Positions 10,498 through 20,006 of a stretch of 24,318 nucleotides of DNA are shown here, in pieces; position 1 is the first letter of the stretch; every line of letters starts with the position of its first letter. The DNA comes from a virus. The notes below the pieces were generated by a model. The model made no database searches and had not been told where the DNA came from. It saw nothing but the letters and a program-made list of their open reading frames with translations. The position numbers were made by a program, and so were the translations under genes. The stretch spans positions 1-24,318 of the IMG/VR virus record IMGVR_UViG_3300045010_000489. One strand, written 5' to 3'.

Positions 10498-11073
10498 TCA
10501 GATTTTTTTTAGAGTTGGCAGCCTACCAGGCTTGATTTTTGAGTGCTTCCACTTACGAGTTCTTTGCATTAGCCGATAGGAATAATCCATTTCTTGAATT
10601 TCTCTTGCATATACCTTTATGTTCACTGGTAATTTGTAGTCTTTGATATACTCTAATGCGCGAGAGTCGGCGTCTAGTTCACACATACGCACACGATTAA
10701 AAATATCTGCAATTTCGTCAGCGTCTAGTTCTATCTTACCGTCAACCCAATCTTCCATGATATCTTGAGCATCTCTCCCATCCGGCATGGTAGTGATAGT
10801 CCATGTAATATCATTAAAGAACCATTGGCTCATGTGTCCAAATTCATGCGCCAACACAGCGAGCCATTTGCTGCGTGGTCGGCCTCGGGCAACTGCTAGT
10901 ATGCCTGGTGTCTTGTTTTTGGGCGGAGAGAAATATCCTGCTAGTTCTCCTATCGGTTCTCCAATAGCAGCCAAACTCGCGCCTTTCCCCCATATCAGTT
11001 TCACATTAGTAAGTTCACAGCAACGCTTCACAACTTGAAGAAATTCTTGTACTCTACGGTTAGTAGTAGTCAT
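10498..11073 (-). CDS. Zincin-type metalloprotease (HEFGH motif)
   Basis: This 191-aa protein has the zinc-binding motif LAHEFGHMSQW (His76, Glu77, His80) and a downstream CELDADSRALEY helix (Glu132) that fits the third ligand of gluzincins such as the ImmA/IrrE-like group. GRPRSKWLAVLAHE before the motif is a common arrangement. There is no signal peptide, so it should act in the cytoplasm or be packaged. AAAGGA lies a few bases before the ATG, and a sigma70-like promoter sits about 30 nt upstream. It is a lone minus-strand gene between plus-strand blocks, converging on the tape measure. Its target is unknown: a host regulator, a phage antitoxin-like factor or a virion protein are all possible. 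Confidence 0.8.
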   Translation of the reverse strand: MTTTNRRVQEFLQVVKRCCELTNVKLIWGKGASLAAIGEPIGELAGYFSPPKNKTPGILAVARGRPRSKWLAVLAHEFGHMSQWFFNDITWTITTMPDGRDAQDIMEDWVDGKIELDADEIADIFNRVRMCELDADSRALEYIKDYKLPVNIKVYAREIQEMDYSYRLMQRTRKWKHSKIKPGRLPTLKKI

Positions 11074-11245: not shown

Positions 11246-11539
11246 GTGAAAACATTTTTTCAGTTCATTTCAGAAGTAAACCGCGACTATCGGGCAGAAC
11301 GCTTAAAACTGTACGGTGGCAAAGATCCAACACCTAAACAGTTGGCAGCACGCAAAAAGAAAGTGCAACGAAATCTGGCAAGACGCAAACTAGAGCAAGA
11401 TGGCAAAGTAAGCAAGGGAGACGGCAAAGATGTGGATCACAAGAATGGCAATGCCCTTGATAATCGCCCAAGCAATTTGAGAGTTATGGATCGCGGAAAG
11501 AATCGTGGTCGAGACAACAACAAGTGGAGAGATGAATGA
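11246..11539 (+). CDS. Small HNH endonuclease with capsid-targeting-like leader
   Basis: This 97-aa basic protein starts at GTG. There is no good ribosome site; the start is chosen because it yields MKTFFQFISE, which matches the leader seen on other proteins here. The C-terminal part has the HNH pattern DVDHKNGNALDNRPSNLRVM (His65 in the first position, Asn residues following) and a basic KNRGRDNNK tail. The middle (about 28-55) is a Lys/Arg-rich helix likely to bind DNA. After cleavage at ISE|V an 87-aa nuclease would remain. The stop overlaps the next start (ATGA). It could be a homing-type endonuclease, but the leader suggests packaging in the head. Confidence 0.75.
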   Translation: MKTFFQFISEVNRDYRAERLKLYGGKDPTPKQLAARKKKVQRNLARRKLEQDGKVSKGDGKDVDHKNGNALDNRPSNLRVMDRGKNRGRDNNKWRDE

Positions 11540-12591
11540 TAAGTTTTAAATCCTATCTCTATGAAGCGAGAGAAAAAACTAAGGGAATAGACTACGAAAC
11601 AGTCATTGTTACTGCTTGGAACTGCAAACATGAAGGTAAGAATAATTGCAAAGGAACTTCTGCCGTTCCCATCAGCGTTGGTCAGGCGATCATCAAGTCG
11701 CTGGAGCAATATGGATTTAAGGGAGGAACCGCTTCAAGAATTGGAAATGATGTTACCCAAGTCACCCCTGAATGGAGTAAGTACTTTAAAGATGGAAAGA
11801 TTCCTAGCGCAACCAAAACACCAAAGACAGATGTGATAATTGGCAATCAGAGGTGCAGCGTAAAACTAGGCGTGGGACAACTCATGTCTGGTGGCAAAGC
11901 AGAAAGTACAGCAACCTTCTACGCCGCTGCAAAGAAAAAGGGTGGCAAAGAGAGCCTCGCAGCGCAAATTGAAAAAGAGATCAAGCAACTTGCAGATTCC
12001 ACTCTTGCCTCCAAGAAAGGTGAGATCGGACCTCAAATCAAGGCTGGTAAAGACCGAGCGATTGCCCGTGCAGAAGCAGCACACAAACAACTAATGGAAA
12101 CTTTGCGAGATGCTTTTGCGAATGATACAGGATTTGCCGCAGCCTTTGTACACGAAGCCATGAGTGGAGACATAAAGTTTGGTAGCACATCTCCTGCCAG
12201 AGCCAAGTACATTCTGTCCACCAATACAACGGGTACACAGGTAAAACTGTATGACATTGATAATTCAGCGTACTGCGCCTCTGTTGCTAAAAAAGCAAGA
12301 GTGCAAGTTCGTTTCAAGACCACCTCTGAGAAAAAGGGTGAAAAGAAAACTGGGTACTATCGCTATTGGAGCGTGGTTTCCCTCATCATGGGCAAAATGG
12401 AGGAAGAGTTTGATGCTGCTGGCCCCATGCTTACAGAAGGTGTAATTAGCGGTATTTGGAATAAAATCACTTCATTCGTATCAGAGATTTGGAATAGTAT
12501 TAGTGGGTGGTTACAAGCCAAGTGGGAAAATCTTATAGAATTTTTTGGTATTGATGTGGATGTGAATTTTGATAACGAAATTGAATTTTGA
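11536..12591 (+). CDS. Putative internal head protein, possible PD-(D/E)XK-like fold
   Basis: This 351-aa protein begins MISFKSYLYE|A, a leader ending in LxE like its neighbours. I do not recognise a named family. Residues 97-123 (KTDVIIGNQRCSVKLGVGQL, then MSGGKAES) have the Asp...xK spacing of restriction-type folds (Asp99, Lys110), with the middle acidic residue replaced by Ser108; this is only suggestive. Residues about 125-200 are a long charged helix. The C-terminus holds another LTE|G site (about residue 300), followed by a Trp-rich amphipathic tail (VISGIWNKITSFVSEIWNSI). It overlaps the HNH gene by four bases, so both are probably translated together. Confidence 0.65.
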   Translation: MISFKSYLYEAREKTKGIDYETVIVTAWNCKHEGKNNCKGTSAVPISVGQAIIKSLEQYGFKGGTASRIGNDVTQVTPEWSKYFKDGKIPSATKTPKTDVIIGNQRCSVKLGVGQLMSGGKAESTATFYAAAKKKGGKESLAAQIEKEIKQLADSTLASKKGEIGPQIKAGKDRAIARAEAAHKQLMETLRDAFANDTGFAAAFVHEAMSGDIKFGSTSPARAKYILSTNTTGTQVKLYDIDNSAYCASVAKKARVQVRFKTTSEKKGEKKTGYYRYWSVVSLIMGKMEEEFDAAGPMLTEGVISGIWNKITSFVSEIWNSISGWLQAKWENLIEFFGIDVDVNFDNEIEF

Positions 12592-12597
12592 TAAATA
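12590..12597 (+). promoter_or_regulatory. Candidate T4-type late promoter (GATAAATA)
   Basis: GATAAATA matches 7 of 8 positions of the T4 late consensus TATAAATA and overlaps the stop of the upstream gene. It is 47 nt before the ATG at 12644, leaving space for a short leader with an AAAGG ribosome site. Late timing would fit a virion-packaged product. Confidence 0.5.
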
Positions 12598-12643
12598 TCG
12601 TCATGAACTAATTTCAATCATTCATTAAGAAAGGCAACTAACT

Positions 12644-14716
12644 ATGAGCAACATCAACAAATCATTCCGCGATTTCCGCAAGAAATTGGATGAACAGGTA
12701 TATGATACAAATGCCGAATATATTGGAGTGGAAGAGCAGAATGAAGCAGCGGGTATTAACGAACAAAGCGTCTTTATAAAACACTCACTCAACATTGCTA
12801 GAAAAACTGTCAAAATGAATGATGTGATGGCTAGAATCATGGGCGGCATGAACAAGAAAGAAGCACATGAGTTTCTTCTGAAACACGGTACTCCCCAAGA
12901 AAAGAAAAATGCATCAAAATATCTTGAAGTAGCAGAGGTAAAAGAAGGGGTTGAAGTAGACATTAACGAACTGGAATCTAAAACCAATGTGAAATTGAGC
13001 GCAGGAACAAAGGTCAAGGTTCCGCACAAGGGCAAGATGGTCAGCGGCAAGATCGTCCGCTACGATAGGGGTGGCACAGGACAAGCACGACAGCATGGTG
13101 GCGGCTATATTGTCGATGTCGGTGAACCCGCAAGCATTCTCGTCCCCGACCACAAGATTCTGAAGGAAGAGATTGATCACATTGAAGAGGGTGTTAACAC
13201 AGTAGACATTAACGAACAAAACATTACTAAAGTAAGTGAAAACGAAAAAAGTACTAAAACTCTTTACAAATACAAAAATAAATACTATTTGGTGTCCTAC
13301 CTACAAACTAGTAACAAGACTGTAATTTTTTCAAGTAAATCAGACGGTAGCCCATCATCGTATTCAGAACTGTGGTCAAGCACGGGTAAAGTTGATGCAA
13401 ACGAGGCTATCTCAGACTTTTTAAAACAGAAGGTAAAGATTGGGTCTATTGAACGCCGCTGGGTAGGGGAATCAAGGCAGCGTGGACTTTCCGCCGCTAT
13501 GGATAATGCACGAGAAGTTGCTAGAAGAATGGTAAAGATGAGCGATGCTAAACTTAAATCTATGGGTGGGATGGACGATCCAGCAATGGTTGCGTATGGA
13601 ATGACAAAGCCAAACGCATATAAATTTTTGTTAAAGTACGGAACCGACGAAGAAAAAAGTGCAGCAAAAAAATGGCTAAAATCCAATTCACAATCAGTTA
13701 ATGAAGATATTTTTCACGAAGTTCGTGTGTTGGATGGTGCAGAAAAATTGATACGAAACGACCCCAGCGGACTCGGTGTAGATATGATTAGTACGTTTAG
13801 AAACATTAAGAAACGCTTTGAAACCTCTCCAAAGGGCAGCGTTTTGGTGCTTCAGAAAGAAATCGATCCTGAAAGTATAAATCTAAATGTGTACACCCCC
13901 GAACAATTTAATTCTTTGGTACGGGGATTCGCCAAAAAACCTGAAACAAAAATTGGTTCAAAGGGCAGTTGGAGCGGTGGTGAAATAACGGTACTTGCCG
14001 TTAATGAAGATATTTTTCAAGAAGCAACTCTTTCAAAATATCTAAAAACTTACAGCCGTGGAAAAGTTGGTGATCGAAAATCAGAAGACGATTCAGAACT
14101 TGCTCGAAAGAAACGAGAAGCAGCAGTTCTTCGTCGTGGTGGTGCAAGTCCAGAATCAATTAAACAGGGAGTGAAATGGGGTGAATGGCCAGAACGAGGA
14201 GCCGCTATTGCAAAGTACAATTTTTACGACAAAGCCAAGTTCAGTAAACTTATTGGAAAAAAATCAGAACGTCGTGACAAGGAAGTGGCTGAAGCATTTC
14301 CCTCACGCAAGCCCGACCAAGTTCATTATGTATTAGTAGTGGACAACAAGGTGGTAGGCAAGGGAAGCAAAGGCGGGATGCGAAACCTGTCCAAAAAGTA
14401 TGGTGGTTTGCAACCACCAAAGAAGGCTGACGCAGAACACGCTAAAGGTAAGGTCTTTATCGGATATAGTCCAAAACAAATTGGAGACACATATTTCAAA
14501 GAGGGTGTCTCTCTTACAAAGGTGAAAGAAGGTGCTGCACTATTTTCTTCGAGTGAATTACGAAATGCCATTGAAGGTTCAAACCAAGAAATCAAAAAAC
14601 TCAAACAAAGATTAAAAAGTGCTAACGAAAAGGACGCTAAACGAATTCAAAAGGACATCAGCGATTTGGAATCTAACATTGAACACGCAAAAGAAATGCT
14701 CAAGGATATTTCATAA
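12644..14716 (+). CDS. Modular 690-aa protein, candidate internal head protein or polyprotein
   Basis: It begins MSNINKSFRDFRKKLDE|Q, again a basic, Phe-containing leader ending in LxE. Several different small modules follow, separated by acidic linkers containing INE or VNED. Residues about 48-95 and 286-346 are two copies of one domain (VKMNDVMARIMGGM... and VKMSDAKLKSMGGM..., each followed by FLLKxGTxxEK); the second has a 10-residue insert. Residues 113-172 look like a small beta-barrel (GTKVKVPHKGKMVSGKIVRY). Linkers VNEDIFHE (352-359) and VNEDIFQE (453-460) recur before new modules. The last ~60 residues are coiled coil. Prohead proteases cut after (L/I)xE, so INE linkers at about 38-40, 107-109 and 189-191 are possible processing sites. 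Function is otherwise unknown. Confidence 0.7.
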   Translation: MSNINKSFRDFRKKLDEQVYDTNAEYIGVEEQNEAAGINEQSVFIKHSLNIARKTVKMNDVMARIMGGMNKKEAHEFLLKHGTPQEKKNASKYLEVAEVKEGVEVDINELESKTNVKLSAGTKVKVPHKGKMVSGKIVRYDRGGTGQARQHGGGYIVDVGEPASILVPDHKILKEEIDHIEEGVNTVDINEQNITKVSENEKSTKTLYKYKNKYYLVSYLQTSNKTVIFSSKSDGSPSSYSELWSSTGKVDANEAISDFLKQKVKIGSIERRWVGESRQRGLSAAMDNAREVARRMVKMSDAKLKSMGGMDDPAMVAYGMTKPNAYKFLLKYGTDEEKSAAKKWLKSNSQSVNEDIFHEVRVLDGAEKLIRNDPSGLGVDMISTFRNIKKRFETSPKGSVLVLQKEIDPESINLNVYTPEQFNSLVRGFAKKPETKIGSKGSWSGGEITVLAVNEDIFQEATLSKYLKTYSRGKVGDRKSEDDSELARKKREAAVLRRGGASPESIKQGVKWGEWPERGAAIAKYNFYDKAKFSKLIGKKSERRDKEVAEAFPSRKPDQVHYVLVVDNKVVGKGSKGGMRNLSKKYGGLQPPKKADAEHAKGKVFIGYSPKQIGDTYFKEGVSLTKVKEGAALFSSSELRNAIEGSNQEIKKLKQRLKSANEKDAKRIQKDISDLESNIEHAKEMLKDIS

Positions 14717-15154
14717 ATGTACGAATATAAAATTATCGGCATACCAAAAGTCATTGATGGAGATACGCTTGATATAATGTTTGACATTGGTTTCCATGTT
14801 CAGATATCGCAGCGATGTAGACTTATGGGCATTGACGCGCCTGAGAGCAGAACCACCGATGCAAAAGAGAAGAAGTATGGCTTAGATGCCAAACAATTCG
14901 TGGAAACCTGGTTGAAGCGTCAACCTAAACTTTGGGGGCGCACAATCAAAGACGACAAATACGGTCGTATGCTTGTAGAAATATACGCAGACTCCTCTAC
15001 CAATTCTCTGAACACGCTGATGATTACAGAGGGATATGCCTGGTCTTATTTGGGTGAAACCAAAGTGAAAGACTTTGCTGCGCTTGATGCCCGCCGTGCG
15101 GCCGCTTTTGCTTCGCGCATGGAACCCGCGCATGAACAAAAGGATTCAATATAA
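14717..15154 (+). CDS. Staphylococcal nuclease-like (SNase) protein
   Basis: This 145-aa protein starts immediately after the previous stop. VIDGDTLDI, CRLMGIDAPESR and DKYGRML are the SNase signatures. The catalytic set appears complete: Asp16, Arg35, Asp40, Glu43 and Arg84, close to the positions in the Staphylococcus enzyme. No signal peptide or capsid leader is seen, so it should act in the infected cytoplasm unless carried otherwise. The family hydrolyses DNA or RNA using calcium. It may degrade host nucleic acid for reuse or take part in superinfection exclusion; the role is inferred. It is translationally linked to the 690-aa protein. Confidence 0.85.
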   Translation: MYEYKIIGIPKVIDGDTLDIMFDIGFHVQISQRCRLMGIDAPESRTTDAKEKKYGLDAKQFVETWLKRQPKLWGRTIKDDKYGRMLVEIYADSSTNSLNTLMITEGYAWSYLGETKVKDFAALDARRAAAFASRMEPAHEQKDSI

Positions 15155-15167
15155 AACCACTATCTAT

Positions 15168-15185
15168 TCAAATTTCAACAACACA
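15168..15185 (+). repeat. Left 18-nt direct repeat flanking the methyltransferase gene
   Basis: TCAAATTTCAACAACACA here matches the copy at 15942-15959 in 17 of 18 positions. The two copies are 774 nt apart and enclose a single AT-rich gene. A 12-nt core (TTTAACAACACA) also occurs at 21369-21380. Confidence 0.7.
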
Positions 15186-15235
15186 TAAGAATGCAGAAGC
15201 ACATACCCTAGACTAAACTTACGAGAGAAAACACA

Positions 15236-15898
15236 ATGAATATAACAGAATTATGTACAATTATGGCAGAAGAAGGTAGTGATAAAAGTGATGGTATAGG
15301 CGTACCAGCGAAACTCGACGGGGTTATACGCAACTACAACCGTCACAATTATACTCTAAAATATTATTCTTTATTCAACTCTAAAAGAGATGATATAAAG
15401 AGAGTATTTGAACTGGGATTAGGTACAAATTACACTGATGTACAATCCAATATGGGTTCGGCTGGAATTCCTGGTGCATCATTAAGAGGATGGAAACGAT
15501 ACTTTAAAAATGCAAAAATTTATGGAGGAGACATTGACACCCGAATTTTATTTACAGAAGACAGAATAAAAACATATTTTGTAGATCAAACAAATATAGA
15601 TTCAATAAGAAATATGTGGGAGTTAGAAGAGTTAGTAGATGGGTTTGATATCATCATAGATGATGGATTGCATGAAATAAATGCTAATTTAGTATTTTTA
15701 GAAAATTCATTACACAAATTAAACAAAGATGGGATCTATATTATAGAAGATGTTCAGTTTTCTAGGATACCCGACTACAGACTCAGATTAAATCAATTAA
15801 CCCAAAAAATAAATTTTGAATTTGCTGTGGTAGAACTTGAACATTCTAATAATAAATTCGATAATTGTTTAATATTAATAAAAAGAACAGAAATCTAG
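15236..15898 (+). CDS. Class I SAM-dependent methyltransferase (AT-rich accessory gene)
   Basis: This 220-aa protein has the Rossmann methyltransferase layout: motif I VFELGLGTN (58-66), an acidic end of strand 2 in IYGGDID (95-101), and DIIIDDGLHE (138-147), followed by GIYIIEDV (166-173). The DDGxHE and EDV combination resembles the group that includes MycE/CmcI-like enzymes and sugar or antibiotic methylases. The acceptor cannot be told from sequence; no DNA-methylase catalytic motif (NPPY) is seen. A GAGAG ribosome site precedes the ATG. The gene is more AT-rich than its neighbours and is bracketed by direct repeats, consistent with a recently acquired accessory gene. Confidence 0.8.
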   Translation: MNITELCTIMAEEGSDKSDGIGVPAKLDGVIRNYNRHNYTLKYYSLFNSKRDDIKRVFELGLGTNYTDVQSNMGSAGIPGASLRGWKRYFKNAKIYGGDIDTRILFTEDRIKTYFVDQTNIDSIRNMWELEELVDGFDIIIDDGLHEINANLVFLENSLHKLNKDGIYIIEDVQFSRIPDYRLRLNQLTQKINFEFAVVELEHSNNKFDNCLILIKRTEI

Positions 15899-15920
15899 AT
15901 TTTATAAAATACTATCCCTG

Positions 15921-15941
15921 AAGACCCCTATCTTTGGTCTT
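15921..15941 (+). terminator. Weak hairpin after the methyltransferase gene
   Basis: AAGACC (15921-15926) and GGTCTT (15936-15941) form a 6-bp stem with a 9-nt loop, 22 nt after the stop. Only a broken T-run (TCAAATTTT) follows, so termination would be inefficient. Confidence 0.4.
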
Positions 15942-15959
15942 TCAAATTTTAACAACACA
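15942..15959 (+). repeat. Right 18-nt direct repeat flanking the methyltransferase gene
   Basis: TCAAATTTTAACAACACA differs from the left copy at one base. It sits just downstream of the weak hairpin and just upstream of the ribosome site of the next small gene. Confidence 0.7.
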
Positions 15960-15994
15960 AAGTGATTGATTTTTTTTTCAAAAAGGAGTGTAAA

Positions 15995-16198
15995 ATGCAA
16001 CTGAAAACACTGAACAACGAATATTGTCAAAACCTGTACGAAAAGTATGTTGTGAAGGATGCAGAGGTGTGGTGTTGGTGATATTGGAATCAAGTAACAG
16101 AAGAGTATCTACATAATCAGTACGAGCAAATGCTTCATCGTGAATGGGATTATTCAAAACTAAAAGCCTCTTGGTGGGGCAAGCAATTCAAGGAGTGA
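15995..16198 (+). pseudogene. Small 67-codon gene interrupted by an in-frame TGA
   Basis: A strong AAGGAG at 15983-15988 precedes an ATG with ideal spacing. The frame reads 28 codons ending VWCW, then TGA (16079-16081), then 38 further open codons rich in Trp, Tyr and Glu, ending KASWWGKQFKE and TGA at 16196-16198. The second stop lies 2 nt before the next ATG, and the ribosome site of that gene is inside the final codons, as in a normal operon. The TGA is one base from TGG (Trp) and lies in a Trp-rich stretch. It could be a point nonsense mutation, a sequencing error, or a readthrough site; the 28-aa product alone is also possible. No family recognised. Confidence 0.5.
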
Positions 16199-16200
16199 AC

Positions 16201-17136
16201 ATGGGTCAGATGAACTACAAAAGATTTTTGACCTTATTGGTTGTGACGCTAATAGGTTTTTCGGGAACTCAATCCATTGGATGTGCCTCTCAGCAAAAGA
16301 AAATCCCCTCCACAGATAGTGGTGCAGTAACCAAACTCGCAGATGCTGCTCAAGATATCAAACGAGATGTAACTAGCATTGTTGAAGACGCGCAGATCAT
16401 TAAACAAGAAGCAGATCAAGCAGATGCAAGCATCGACAAAGCATATGATGATCCCACTACCAGTTCAACGGCAAAAGAGAATCTCGATACGGCCATAGAC
16501 TCTATTGCTCAGATTAAAAACCATAGTGATCAAGTTATTGAAGCGAGTGAGCGCATCGAAACAGAGATAATCAAGATAGAACTTGTCTCTACTCGTATCA
16601 AAGATCTTGAAGGGCGTGTCGCCGAACTAGAAAATATCGAAAAAGAAGGCCGTGCTGCTGCCATGCAAAAGTTGTACGGTTATATCACTCTTTTCTGGGT
16701 GATTGGTTTCATATTAATTGCTGGTGGTGTAGCATTCGCATTCTTTGCAAACAAACGCCTTGGTATGCTTGCGGTATTCACGGGCGGGCTCATGCTTGCA
16801 TTTGCAAGCGCAAGTCAATACTATCTGAAAGAGGTAGCATTGGTTGGTGGTATTTTGCTTGCAGGAATGGTACTTGCGGGAGTAGGAATTTTGCTATGGG
16901 GAATCTATCAATCGAACCGTAACGCAACAGCCATGCGCGAAGTGATTGAGATGATTGAAATTCTAAAAGAAACCATGACAGATGGAGAGCGTGAGCGTAT
17001 CTTTGGAGAGAATGGTGTTGCCTCTCATGTGCAAAGCAATTTTACGCGAGAATTGATATCTAAAATCAAAGAGAAAAACGGCTTTAAAAAACTTGAAAAA
17101 GCGCGGAATATTGCCAAGTCTGAAAGCCAAACATAA
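16201..17136 (+). CDS. Membrane lipoprotein with coiled coil and three transmembrane helices
   Basis: The ATG at 16201 is preferred over 16144 because AAGGAG lies just upstream and the product then has a clean signal peptide: MNYKRFLTLLVVTLIGF followed by SIGC with Cys28 as the lipidation residue (an atypical lipobox with Ser at -3). Residues about 45-155 are a polar coiled coil. Three hydrophobic segments follow (about 160-182, 187-207, 212-237), then a charged C-terminal helix. I do not recognise a family. It might work in the host envelope during lysis or superinfection exclusion. The paired lipidation and polytopic membrane design is unusual for a phage protein. Confidence 0.7.
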   Translation: MGQMNYKRFLTLLVVTLIGFSGTQSIGCASQQKKIPSTDSGAVTKLADAAQDIKRDVTSIVEDAQIIKQEADQADASIDKAYDDPTTSSTAKENLDTAIDSIAQIKNHSDQVIEASERIETEIIKIELVSTRIKDLEGRVAELENIEKEGRAAAMQKLYGYITLFWVIGFILIAGGVAFAFFANKRLGMLAVFTGGLMLAFASASQYYLKEVALVGGILLAGMVLAGVGILLWGIYQSNRNATAMREVIEMIEILKETMTDGERERIFGENGVASHVQSNFTRELISKIKEKNGFKKLEKARNIAKSESQT

Positions 17137-17196
17137 TCTAGTTACAGTATCAATTAAAACCTAACCATCGAGCAAGCAGAATTCCAATACAGAATC

Positions 17197-17958
17197 CTAA
17201 TGCACAAACGAGAATCCGTTGAATTTGGGTGGATCGCATTTGTTGTCCTCCATGATGTCATTGATCCATGATAGTAACAAATCTACTTGCACTGCTGAGT
17301 TCTCGTAGATGTATCCGCGTCTACATGAAAGCGAAGAGATGATACCTACCAGTTTGCCGTGTATATTAAATATTGCACCACCTGAATCACCAAACCATAT
17401 GGTTCCTTCGTAGCACAGCATTTTCAGATTGAATGGGTCTTCCATTAAGGTTCCGTAGTACCAAAACACACCTAGATTACTTTGCTTTCTGAATCCACCG
17501 CCATGTCCAACTGCAATAAGTAGTTCTCCGCGTAACAGAGGACCACTTCCAAGACAAACTGGTTGTTCTGTGCATGGTTCGTGCAATACCAAGAGTGCAG
17601 CATCAACTACAAATACATCTCCGTTTTTATAGAGCGGATGCATATGTGTTTGTTCAATACAATAATTAATTCCATTGCACTGAAACCAATAAGCGTCTGT
17701 GTCTTCCATGACATGACTAGCAGTAAGTACATGAGTTGGGGATATAAGAACACCACTACCAATTAAATCACCATTGTATTTTAGAATGCGTCCCACCGCA
17801 GATTTTTCAGCATCGCTAATGTGGGTAAATCCTCTGAGATACGATGGTGTGGGTAATTTTTGTTGTCTGGAACTTACATCGACACTCGTAGTTCCGACAC
17901 AGGCTGCAAGCAGTAGTGCCGCAAGCATGGGAAGAGATTGAACAACAGTTCTCTTCAT
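17197..17958 (-). CDS. Trypsin-like serine protease lipoprotein
   Basis: This 253-aa protein has an N-terminal signal peptide with lipobox LLAAC (Cys20), so it should be anchored in the host envelope. The chymotrypsin-fold catalytic triad is visible: His82 in LTASHVM, Asp119 in VVDAALLVL and Ser192 in GDSGGAIF. GSGVLISPTHVLTASH is the usual strand-loop before the His. It has several Cys residues (94, 100, 129, 135, 182, 212), which suggests disulfides and a periplasmic location. A TATAAATA sequence lies just upstream. Its substrate is unknown; surface receptor or competing-phage protein cleavage is possible. It is the last gene of the minus-strand block. Confidence 0.88.
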   Translation of the reverse strand: MKRTVVQSLPMLAALLLAACVGTTSVDVSSRQQKLPTPSYLRGFTHISDAEKSAVGRILKYNGDLIGSGVLISPTHVLTASHVMEDTDAYWFQCNGINYCIEQTHMHPLYKNGDVFVVDAALLVLHEPCTEQPVCLGSGPLLRGELLIAVGHGGGFRKQSNLGVFWYYGTLMEDPFNLKMLCYEGTIWFGDSGGAIFNIHGKLVGIISSLSCRRGYIYENSAVQVDLLLSWINDIMEDNKCDPPKFNGFSFVH

Positions 17959-17959
17959 G

Positions 17960-17979
17960 CCATATATTTATATCTGGCA
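17960..17979 (-). promoter_or_regulatory. TATAAATA late-promoter match inside an inverted repeat
   Basis: On the minus strand TATAAATA (17972-17965) matches the T4 late consensus exactly, 6 nt before the protease ATG. TGCCA (17960-17964) and TGGCA (17975-17979) flank it as an inverted repeat. If used as a promoter, transcription would begin almost at the start codon, giving a nearly leaderless mRNA, so its role is doubtful. Confidence 0.4.
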
Positions 17980-18012
17980 TATAGTTAGAGAGCAAAATAA
18001 AAAAATATGTGA

Positions 18013-18948
18013 TTAGTCGTTGTTAAATGTACCACCATCAATAACAGAACAGCATACAGAACCTGCATTTCCTGTGTGGTAGTCGGTGTATGTGATTATG
18101 AGATCTCCGTCCTCATTCACTTCGATTGATCCGATACCGATACCCATCTCACCTTGAGGGCCTTGAACACCCTGAACACCCTGAATACCCTGAATACCTT
18201 GTTCACCCTGTGGTCCTGCAGGTCCTGGAGGTCCTGGAGGTCCTTGAGGACCTGGAGGTCCTTGAGGACCTGGATGTTCAACAATATCATCATCTGTATT
18301 GTTTGAGCCAGCATCTTCGGGATCAAGTAAATCTTTTGCTACGCGAGCAGATATCTTGCCTGCGTTTACTGTTCTGCCATCGGTGAGAGTCACAATCAAC
18401 TCTCCAAGATCGTTAATGGATAGAGTTTTTACTCCAGTGCCTGTTGCACCGCGCTTCCCATCACGCCCGCGCTTTCCTTCTGCCCCTTGCTCTCCTTTAT
18501 CTCCTTTTAATCCCATAGGACCAATAGCACCCTGTATTCCTCTAGGTCCTGGTTCGCCGCGAGGGCCTTGAATACCCTGTTCACCTTGAGGTCCTTGAAT
18601 ACCTTGTTCACCTTGAGGGCCTTGGGAACCAGGAATACCTTGCTCACCTTGAGGTCCTTGTTCTCCTTGAGGACCTGCTTCTCCTTTTATCCCTGCTGGA
18701 CCAATGGGTCCTATTAGACCTACTGATCCTTGAGGTCCTCGCTCACCTTGCAATCCACGAGGACCCATTGAACCATGCAGTCCTTGTTCACCAATTACCC
18801 TGCCTGCATTGATGAAAGTTTCGTCGTTTAACAGGACGATTAAATCACCATCTTCGCTTACATAGGCGCCGTCAATACCTACAACCGTTTCTCTCTTTTT
18901 TTTCCATAGAGGTCCTTGTAGTGATTGATGAGTTGGTTTCATAGTCAT
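18013..18948 (-). CDS. Collagen-like fibre protein with repeated beta modules
   Basis: This 311-aa protein has two uninterrupted Gly-X-Y tracts: residues about 53-173 (roughly 40 triplets) and 227-272 (about 15, including [14 protein letters not shown]). Three similar short beta modules cap the tracts: about 22-52 ([14 protein letters not shown], then INAGRV), 172-199 ([20 protein letters not shown]) and 271-298 ([14 protein letters not shown], then GNAG). The C-terminus has adjacent cysteines (299-300) that could link chains, as in some collagens. Phage collagen-like proteins are usually trimeric tail or head fibres; this one is probably a virion fibre or decoration. No ribosome site is obvious; Met3 is an alternative start. 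Confidence 0.85.
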
Positions 18949-18960
18949 AATGGAAAGTTT

Positions 18961-19425
18961 TCAGTCTTTTCGTTTAAGTTTCCACAGTGCAGCAGCACCT
19001 CCCGAGAGTACTTTGTCCACATTGTACCCGTATTTAGACACAAATCGTTTTATTAATGCTCCATACGCTTTTTCACGGGAATCCCCTTGTGTCTTTGACG
19101 CGCTGAATGTAATAAATTGGGGGTTATACTCTTCTATGAATCGTTTTGTTGCGTCCAGCACAGTCGCAAATACTCTGCTTGCACCGCCTTGATCCGTCAT
19201 ACCAAACTTGTAGCCGCGATGAAACAGTAGTTCCCAAGAGTCTTCGTTCAGATTTGTTTGCTCAAATATCACCTCTAAGTCTTCCTTACGCTTTTCATAA
19301 TTTTGGGGATCTGCGTATCGGTATATTACTATTGGTCTGCCGCTGTGCGATTGCACTTCAGTAGAGTTGATAATTTTCCACGGCTTCTCAAACAGTTCGG
19401 TTAGATACGTGCTGAAAGTTTTCAT
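18961..19425 (-). CDS. Conserved phage protein with capsid-targeting-like leader (function unknown)
   Basis: This 154-aa protein starts MKTFSTYLTE|L. The remainder (YKFGMTDQGGASRVFATVLD, then FITFSASKTQGDSREKAYGA and a C-terminal ALIKRFVSKYGY) matches a family I have often seen in marine T4-like phages, where it is annotated as hypothetical. The last part resembles the C-terminal end of acetyltransferase folds (a SR...Y..L..R sequence), but I see no acetyl-CoA loop. There is no membrane segment. It sits between the collagen-like gene and another leader-bearing protein. Confidence 0.75.
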   Translation of the reverse strand: MKTFSTYLTELFEKPWKIINSTEVQSHSGRPIVIYRYADPQNYEKRKEDLEVIFEQTNLNEDSWELLFHRGYKFGMTDQGGASRVFATVLDATKRFIEEYNPQFITFSASKTQGDSREKAYGALIKRFVSKYGYNVDKVLSGGAAALWKLKRKD

Positions 19426-19445
19426 GTGTGTTTGTAAATACTACT

Positions 19446-20006
19446 TTACGTTTCTAGGTTTAAGTACCCGTCAGGTTTGGGGCTAAGAATGGTGTACCCT
19501 TTAAACATTCGTGCAAGTGTGGTTTCCACACGGCTTAAGCCCCGTAACAGCGCCCGATCACCAAGCAGGCTGTCTGTGGGGGCAATAGAAACAGTAACGG
19601 TTTTTCTGAAACGATCAATTCGCCCCTGATACGGAGTTCTGTCATGAAAACGCGGAGAAGCGTCTTTTCGATACTCTGGAATGGTGTCGTGAACCACGTC
19701 TGTTGCTGATTTCCCTTTTGGAATTTCCCAAATCACCACCTGTCCTGTTTTGTTTACCCACCACAGCAATGGCAGTAGTTCACGGGAAGTGTCTGTGGCA
19801 CTCAGTCCCCATTTTTTTAGCAGCCACGGCATGGGGTTGTTGTGCCCCACACCTGTGTACTCTACATTACCACTAGGGTCTGCTTCTTTACGCAACCGCT
19901 GCACTGTTAACGGATCAGGTTTAATTTTAACTGATGTTCCGTGTTTAACGAGTGGCGTGCGCTTCAGCACTGCTTCGCGGAGATACTGTGAAAACGTGTG
20001 TATCAT
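19446..20006 (-). CDS. Protein of unknown function with capsid-targeting-like leader
   Basis: This 186-aa basic protein starts MIHTFSQYLRE|A, the same leader form as its neighbour with one extra residue. Its ATG overlaps the stop of the upstream SpeD-like gene (TAATG), fixing the start and implying coupled translation. The middle (TGVGHNNPMPWLLKKWGL, ELLPLLWWVNKTGQVVIWEI) is Trp-rich; the rest (FHDRTPYQGRIDRFRKTVTV) is basic. I do not recognise a family. The strongly basic composition after the leader would suit a DNA-associated head protein, but that is inference. Confidence 0.7.
   Translation of the reverse strand: MIHTFSQYLREAVLKRTPLVKHGTSVKIKPDPLTVQRLRKEADPSGNVEYTGVGHNNPMPWLLKKWGLSATDTSRELLPLLWWVNKTGQVVIWEIPKGKSATDVVHDTIPEYRKDASPRFHDRTPYQGRIDRFRKTVTVSIAPTDSLLGDRALLRGLSRVETTLARMFKGYTILSPKPDGYLNLET

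Follow-up and report, generated by a model that had tools for sequence, protein, structure and literature searches.

Four proteins of an uncultured, T4-like virus related to Pelagibacter and Methylophilales phages begin with short leaders which are probably capsid targeting sequences like those of the T4 internal proteins: a gp21-type protease would cut after the Glu of the leader, and the cargo would reside in the head and enter the host. The mechanism is already known, and it is the cargo and the lineage that are new. The window analysed here is a whole virus record of 24,318 bases, likely a fragment, and its proteins are named after the lower coordinate of their ORFs (Table 1). An earlier, sequence-only reading had ascribed a shared leader to five proteins, and all five ORFs and N-termini were found where it had placed them (the start codon of 11246 is GTG). 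A short, aromatic N-terminal leader ending in (L/I)xE is present in four of these (11246 and 11536 on the plus strand, 18961 and 19446 on the minus strand), but not in 12644 on the plus strand, which does not fit the pattern and has its motif in an internal position in homologues. The capsid-targeting interpretation of that reading, apart from this fifth member, finds good support in independent data from the virions of the cyanophages S-CREM2 and S-SCSM1, from an N-terminal leader class in metaviromes and from gp21 in relatives.

Table 1. Leaders, cargos and neighbouring features in the window; the arrow marks the putative cut.
Feature	Coordinates	Strand	Basis
Leader MKTFFQFISE of HNH protein, GTG start	11246..11275	+	Pattern match; sister contigs
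HNH endonuclease-like cargo (PF13392, phrog_4590)	11276..11539	+	Conserved domain opens RDYRAERLK right after leader
Leader MISFKSYLYE	11536..11565	+	Glu kept in homologues; low model confidence
Cargo, predicted HinP1I/MspI/HhaI restriction endonuclease fold	11566..12591	+	Structure match; D99 and S108-x-K110 invariant
690-aa protein resembling a string of small domains; weak possible leader MSNINKSFRDFRKKLDE↓Q	12644..14716	+	Motif internal in homologues
Staphylococcal-nuclease-like protein, leaderless	14717..15154	+	Block-end position kept in sister contigs
GNAT-fold acetyltransferase-like cargo (DUF6934/phrog_16075)	18961..19395	-	Predicted fold, residues 13-154
Leader MKTFSTYLTE, then LFEKP	19396..19425	-	Pattern match; cf. 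T4 Alt MELITELFDED
Cargo without assigned family	19446..19973	-	Homologues in L020, L021, L024
Leader MIHTFSQYLRE	19974..20006	-	Pattern match; homologue leaders

The four leaders, MKTFFQFISE↓V (11246), MISFKSYLYE↓A (11536), MKTFSTYLTE↓L (18961) and MIHTFSQYLRE↓A (19446), fit the compact pattern M-x(2,3)-F-xx-[FY]-[LIVM]-x-E and have the same form as the capsid targeting sequences and the gp23 cleavage site of T4. Translated from T4 DNA, IPII and IPIII start with MKTYQEFIAE↓A and IPI with MKTFKEFTSTTTPVSTITE↓A, and the gp23 site reads FGSFLTE65↓A, the Glu being residue 65; the start of Alt may be compared with the leader of 18961 and the LFEKP that follows it. The gp21 motif was given as L/I-X-E in a review, according to which packaging of IPIII requires its first ten residues (PMC9026906), and Ip1-3 of T4 have only the leader in common, each blocking different GmrSD enzymes (PMC12373910).

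As in IPI, IPII, IPIII and Alt, where a leader of about ten residues (M-x2-[FY]-xx-F-I-x-E↓A) precedes unrelated cargos, the leaders of the window stand before an HNH protein, a protein of HinP1I/MspI-like fold, one of GNAT fold and one of no assigned family. That the proteins are otherwise unrelated, as had been proposed, thus applies within the window; in related contigs, however, the 11246 and 18961 families are fused in one ORF and so are the 11246 and 11536 families. In one such ORF, that of L024, a leader is joined to an 18961-type domain, with RLAE↓A and then the HNH domain behind it. A tie of site-bearing HNH fusions to a T4-like context was considered and rejected (Fisher p = 0.10), most such contigs showing no T4 hallmark in the stretch covered. 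The cargo of T4 differs in that it comprises small restriction-enzyme inhibitors or an ADP-ribosyltransferase, and the virus of the window, kin of Pelagibacter and Methylophilales phages, is uncultured. If our reading is correct, capsid-targeted cargo widens from small restriction-enzyme inhibitors to nuclease-like and transferase-like proteins.

During head assembly, the leader would bring its cargo into the prohead core, where the gp21-type prohead protease of the virus would cut after the Glu of (F/Y)(L/I)xE, as on the major capsid protein; the mature cargo would then remain inside the head alongside the DNA and enter the host at infection. The set so delivered would consist of the HNH protein, the HinP1I/MspI/HhaI-fold protein, the GNAT-fold protein and the one without a family. 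For the virus of the window we infer packaging, cleavage, injection and enzymatic activity alike. A PF03420/gp21 gene was not found in the 24 kb of the window, which is uninformative in a fragment. As in T4, a head module with gp21 accompanies the leaders, here in relatives: S77 (gp21-type) protease genes are present in the contig G007 and in the phages HTVC008M, Melnitz and Mosig, and G007 combines leader-bearing homologues of 19446 and 18961 with a gp20-gp21-gp22-gp23 head module. Aligned stretches of gp23 read AFLSE↓A in Melnitz and Mosig, AFLGE↓I in HTVC008M and LLTE↓A in S-CREM2. One point counts against the reading: in HTVC008M, where gp21 and a homologue of 11536 are both present, the leader pattern gave no match, owing to a longer leader (MLSFTGYSNLSE↓A).

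It is improbable, though worth weighing, that the motif targets the prohead core and is left uncut, or is cut in some of the proteins only. The Glu is followed by A in two of the four leaders (11536 and 19446), but by V in 11246 and L in 18961, whereas IPII, IPIII and gp23 of T4 have A; processing of head proteins is variable in the giant phage SPN3US and its relatives; and the cyanophage proteomes cited below, obtained by MS from CsCl-purified virions, report presence and not N-terminal cleavage. Against this, the Glu hardly varies among homologues whose leaders otherwise drift in length and sequence, which fits a constraint by cleavage, and the site resembles that of gp23. Homologues keep the Glu ahead of the domain while the leader diverges, and E occupies the last leader position in 31 of 52 N-termini of the loci compared (the next commonest residue occurs four times). 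The DNA pattern used on metaviromes (see below), when altered to require D instead of E, was found in 38 stretches of the whole collection, 22 of them at an ORF start; such D-variant leaders, MKTFKQFMADA and MKTFRQFMEDA, open ORFs in some contigs (L238-L275). According to the literature, head cargo of the giant phages phiKZ and SPN3US is cut after Glu by a prohead protease and ejected with the DNA, but their propeptides are mostly longer and differ in sequence.

Capsid targeting with cleavage, our preferred reading, also draws on published virion proteomes. The leader probably marks proteins which travel inside the virion and reach the host together with the DNA, because it resembles the T4 tag and because published MS finds tagged proteins in particles of related cyanophages. 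The virion proteome of S-CREM2 (Table 3 there) lists 52 proteins (PMC10665884). When the S-CREM2 genome was scanned with the compact pattern, F and T being also permitted before x-E, four annotated genes were returned, all four in the published proteome, plus one internal start within nrdA. The four, which include non-structural enzymes, are a SAM hydrolase (MKDFDSFLEE), a kinase (MKRFDAFLTE), a cytidylyltransferase (MKNFSSFLTE) and ORF136 (MQTFSMFFSE). With variant leaders of two further virion proteins, ORF13 (MKDLHSFLTE) and the Cas9-like ORF12 (RFASFMAE), the count is six of six. With 52 of 219 S-CREM2 proteins detected, the hypergeometric probability is 0.003 for 4/4 and, with leaders included that were spotted by eye once the virion list was seen, 1.4e-4 for 6/6 or, among non-structural proteins, 6.9e-6. 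The list also holds virion proteins of unassigned function without the leader, and its authors concede possible carry-over of abundant proteins (PMC10665884). The virion NMNAT of S-SCSM1 starts with MKSFLQFLKE↓A, a leader of the same kind as those of the window and of the S-CREM2 cytidylyltransferase (ORF154), both cyanophage proteins being virion-detected; an NMNAT gene was not found among the leader genes of the window. The accessible parts of the S-CREM2 and S-SCSM1 papers make no mention of the leader, and in open-access papers we found no literature tying capsid targeting sequences to cyanophages. If our reading holds, it offers a possible explanation for NMNAT, kinase and SAM hydrolase in cyanophage virions, a point which the S-CREM2 authors left open. 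Two side observations concern the same virions: the Cas9/Csn1-like annotated protein of S-CREM2 (OR473000, 7704-10313), MS-detected there, has RFASFMAE↓A near its N-terminus, and a 69-aa virion protein of S-SCSM1 (L117:17508-17717) has a leader-like motif at its C-terminus, KKRTFKEFLEYIE, ending TFKEFLEYIE.

These proteomes also bear on the notion that the motif forms a short amphipathic helix which docks onto a partner outside the capsid, such as the sliding clamp or a late-gene factor, to which we assign very little probability. F-xx-F/Y-L is indeed like generic hydrophobic docking peptides, and the starts of T4 gene 61.1 and of an ORF at the uvsW end, which are not known as internal proteins, resemble the window leaders; but every annotated S-CREM2 match was in the virion proteome, the last position shows a strong preference for E, and the motif agrees with the T4 leader as defined by experiment.

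The compact pattern was derived from the window leaders themselves; a looser, T4-derived pattern returns the same four proteins. Chance or common descent, aided by a composition bias of phage starts, can be set aside almost entirely: MK-rich starts are common and 18961-family paralogues are of shared descent, but with residues 2-16 of the 27 window genes shuffled in 20,000 rounds a mean of 0.003 compact-pattern matches per window (0.023 with the T4-derived pattern) stood against four observed, a number never reached, none of 175 internal methionines in the window matched, HNH-bearing contigs of other phages gave one match in 703 kb scanned, and the 76 closed leader proteins among the metavirome matches listed fall into many unrelated families. 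These matches stem from a scan of viral contigs with a DNA pattern for MK-x-F-xx-aromatic/L-aliphatic-x-E-A, which gave at least 120 matches; among those listed (80 loci), 81 of 82 begin ORFs. Represented among the 76 closed proteins are cytidylyltransferases (26 by PHROG), zeta-toxin/AAA kinase-like proteins, DUF5661, DUF6267 and one GNAT. Several of the contigs compared are fragments, and related paralogues count as non-independent.

Regarding the cargos, homologues of the HNH protein 11246 in four sister contigs (L001, L022, G001, G002) keep MKTF(F/L)QFISE↓A, while free-standing HNH homologues in other phages are mostly leaderless and start with M(A/P)RDYKKEY. Homologues of 11536 (36-75% identity) vary in length and sequence of the leader, the Glu before the domain being nearly invariant. 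The possible second nuclease of the sequence-only reading, 11536, gained support from a predicted HinP1I/MspI/HhaI-type fold. The model, built from 30 sequences (pLDDT 79, pTM 0.72), matched HinP1I with Z 11.1 and 9.4, MspI with 10.7 and HhaI with 6.3 over most of residues 4-285; these, its only strong matches, made up the top four VIA rows, the next having Z 3.9. The family has D...(Q/N)xK where 11536 has a conserved D...SxK, a candidate active site of PD-(D/E)XK type. It differs from the family in lacking detectable sequence similarity (a PDB search with the 11536 profile gave no significant match), in having no methylase gene seen adjoining it, and in possessing a leader and a C-terminal helical extension. 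AGCT, missing from the window and its close sisters, was considered as target of 11536 and rejected: it is normally frequent in most contigs with 11536 homologues, and G007 also lacks it, yet no 11536 homologue was detected there.

For 18961, the predicted model matched mainly GNAT chains with a middling best Z of 8.7, which gives the protein a predicted GNAT fold; in phage PA5oct, ESI-MS/MS underlies the annotation of a homologue as structural protein. Across the 18961 family the Glu is followed by a conserved LFE(K/R)P, and the stretch might therefore belong to the domain. The search of viral contigs for related loci returned no 18961 relatives. In the models of both 11536 and 18961 the predicted folds exclude the leaders. 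Leaders of 19446 homologues read MRSFRDHLRE↓A, MKEFRQYITDHLRE↓A and VKSFRDHLHE↓A, with LRE↓AVL or LHE↓AVI at the junction to the domain; family searches with 19446 gave no match.

Most likely, the cargo would act against the DNA of the host or help to take the host over early. The counter-defence or takeover arsenal suggested earlier finds at most partial support in its first half, as the cargo of clearest fold resembles a restriction nuclease and would suit an attack on host DNA equally well; PADLOC assigned no defence family to the leader proteins of the window. A wider proposal, in which marine T4-like viruses use the leader as a general enzyme-loading code and 11536 is injected from the head as an active four-base nuclease, the viral genome having lost its own target sites, we regard as doubtful. 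If the narrower reading is true, candidate injected cargo of T4-like viruses, uncultured marine ones included, could be read from a ten-residue leader.

The fifth protein, 12644, has an N-terminal motif, SFRDFRKKLDE, outside the compact pattern. In its homologues (L001, L003), RFADFRKQLDE↓Q and SFKDFRKQLDE↓Q are located well within the protein; the motif is therefore not an N-terminal leader in this family, and 12644 was rejected as an ordinary leader protein. Processing as a polyprotein was rejected as well, [LIVMST]xE[AGS] sites showing no excess (6 vs 4.8 in shuffles); a mild excess occurred only in L018, L026 and L042.

The T4-type genes of the window encode gp53, a tail tube cap, gp4-like head closure, a gp2-like end protector, tail tube and gp26 hub. 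By several proteins, Pelagibacter phage HTVC008M and Methylophilales phage Melnitz are the nearest cultured relatives, with homologues of the leader families in gp126 of the former and gp15 and gp16 of the latter, and the sister contigs G001, G002 and L003 are 70-82% identical to the window block. Among minus-strand neighbours are a protein with a HEFGH metallopeptidase-like motif (10498-11073; sister contigs 78-82% identical), a trypsin-like protease (PF13365) with lipoprotein-like start (17197-17958), a collagen-like repeat protein (18013-18948) and, directly upstream of 19446, an S-adenosylmethionine decarboxylase-like protein (PF02675; 20006-20452). AGCT occurs 0 times in the window against 70 expected from trinucleotides, and is missing from G001 (0/178) and G007 (0/303), the latter having also ACGT at 0/301, CCGG at 0/326 and GGCC at 2/240.
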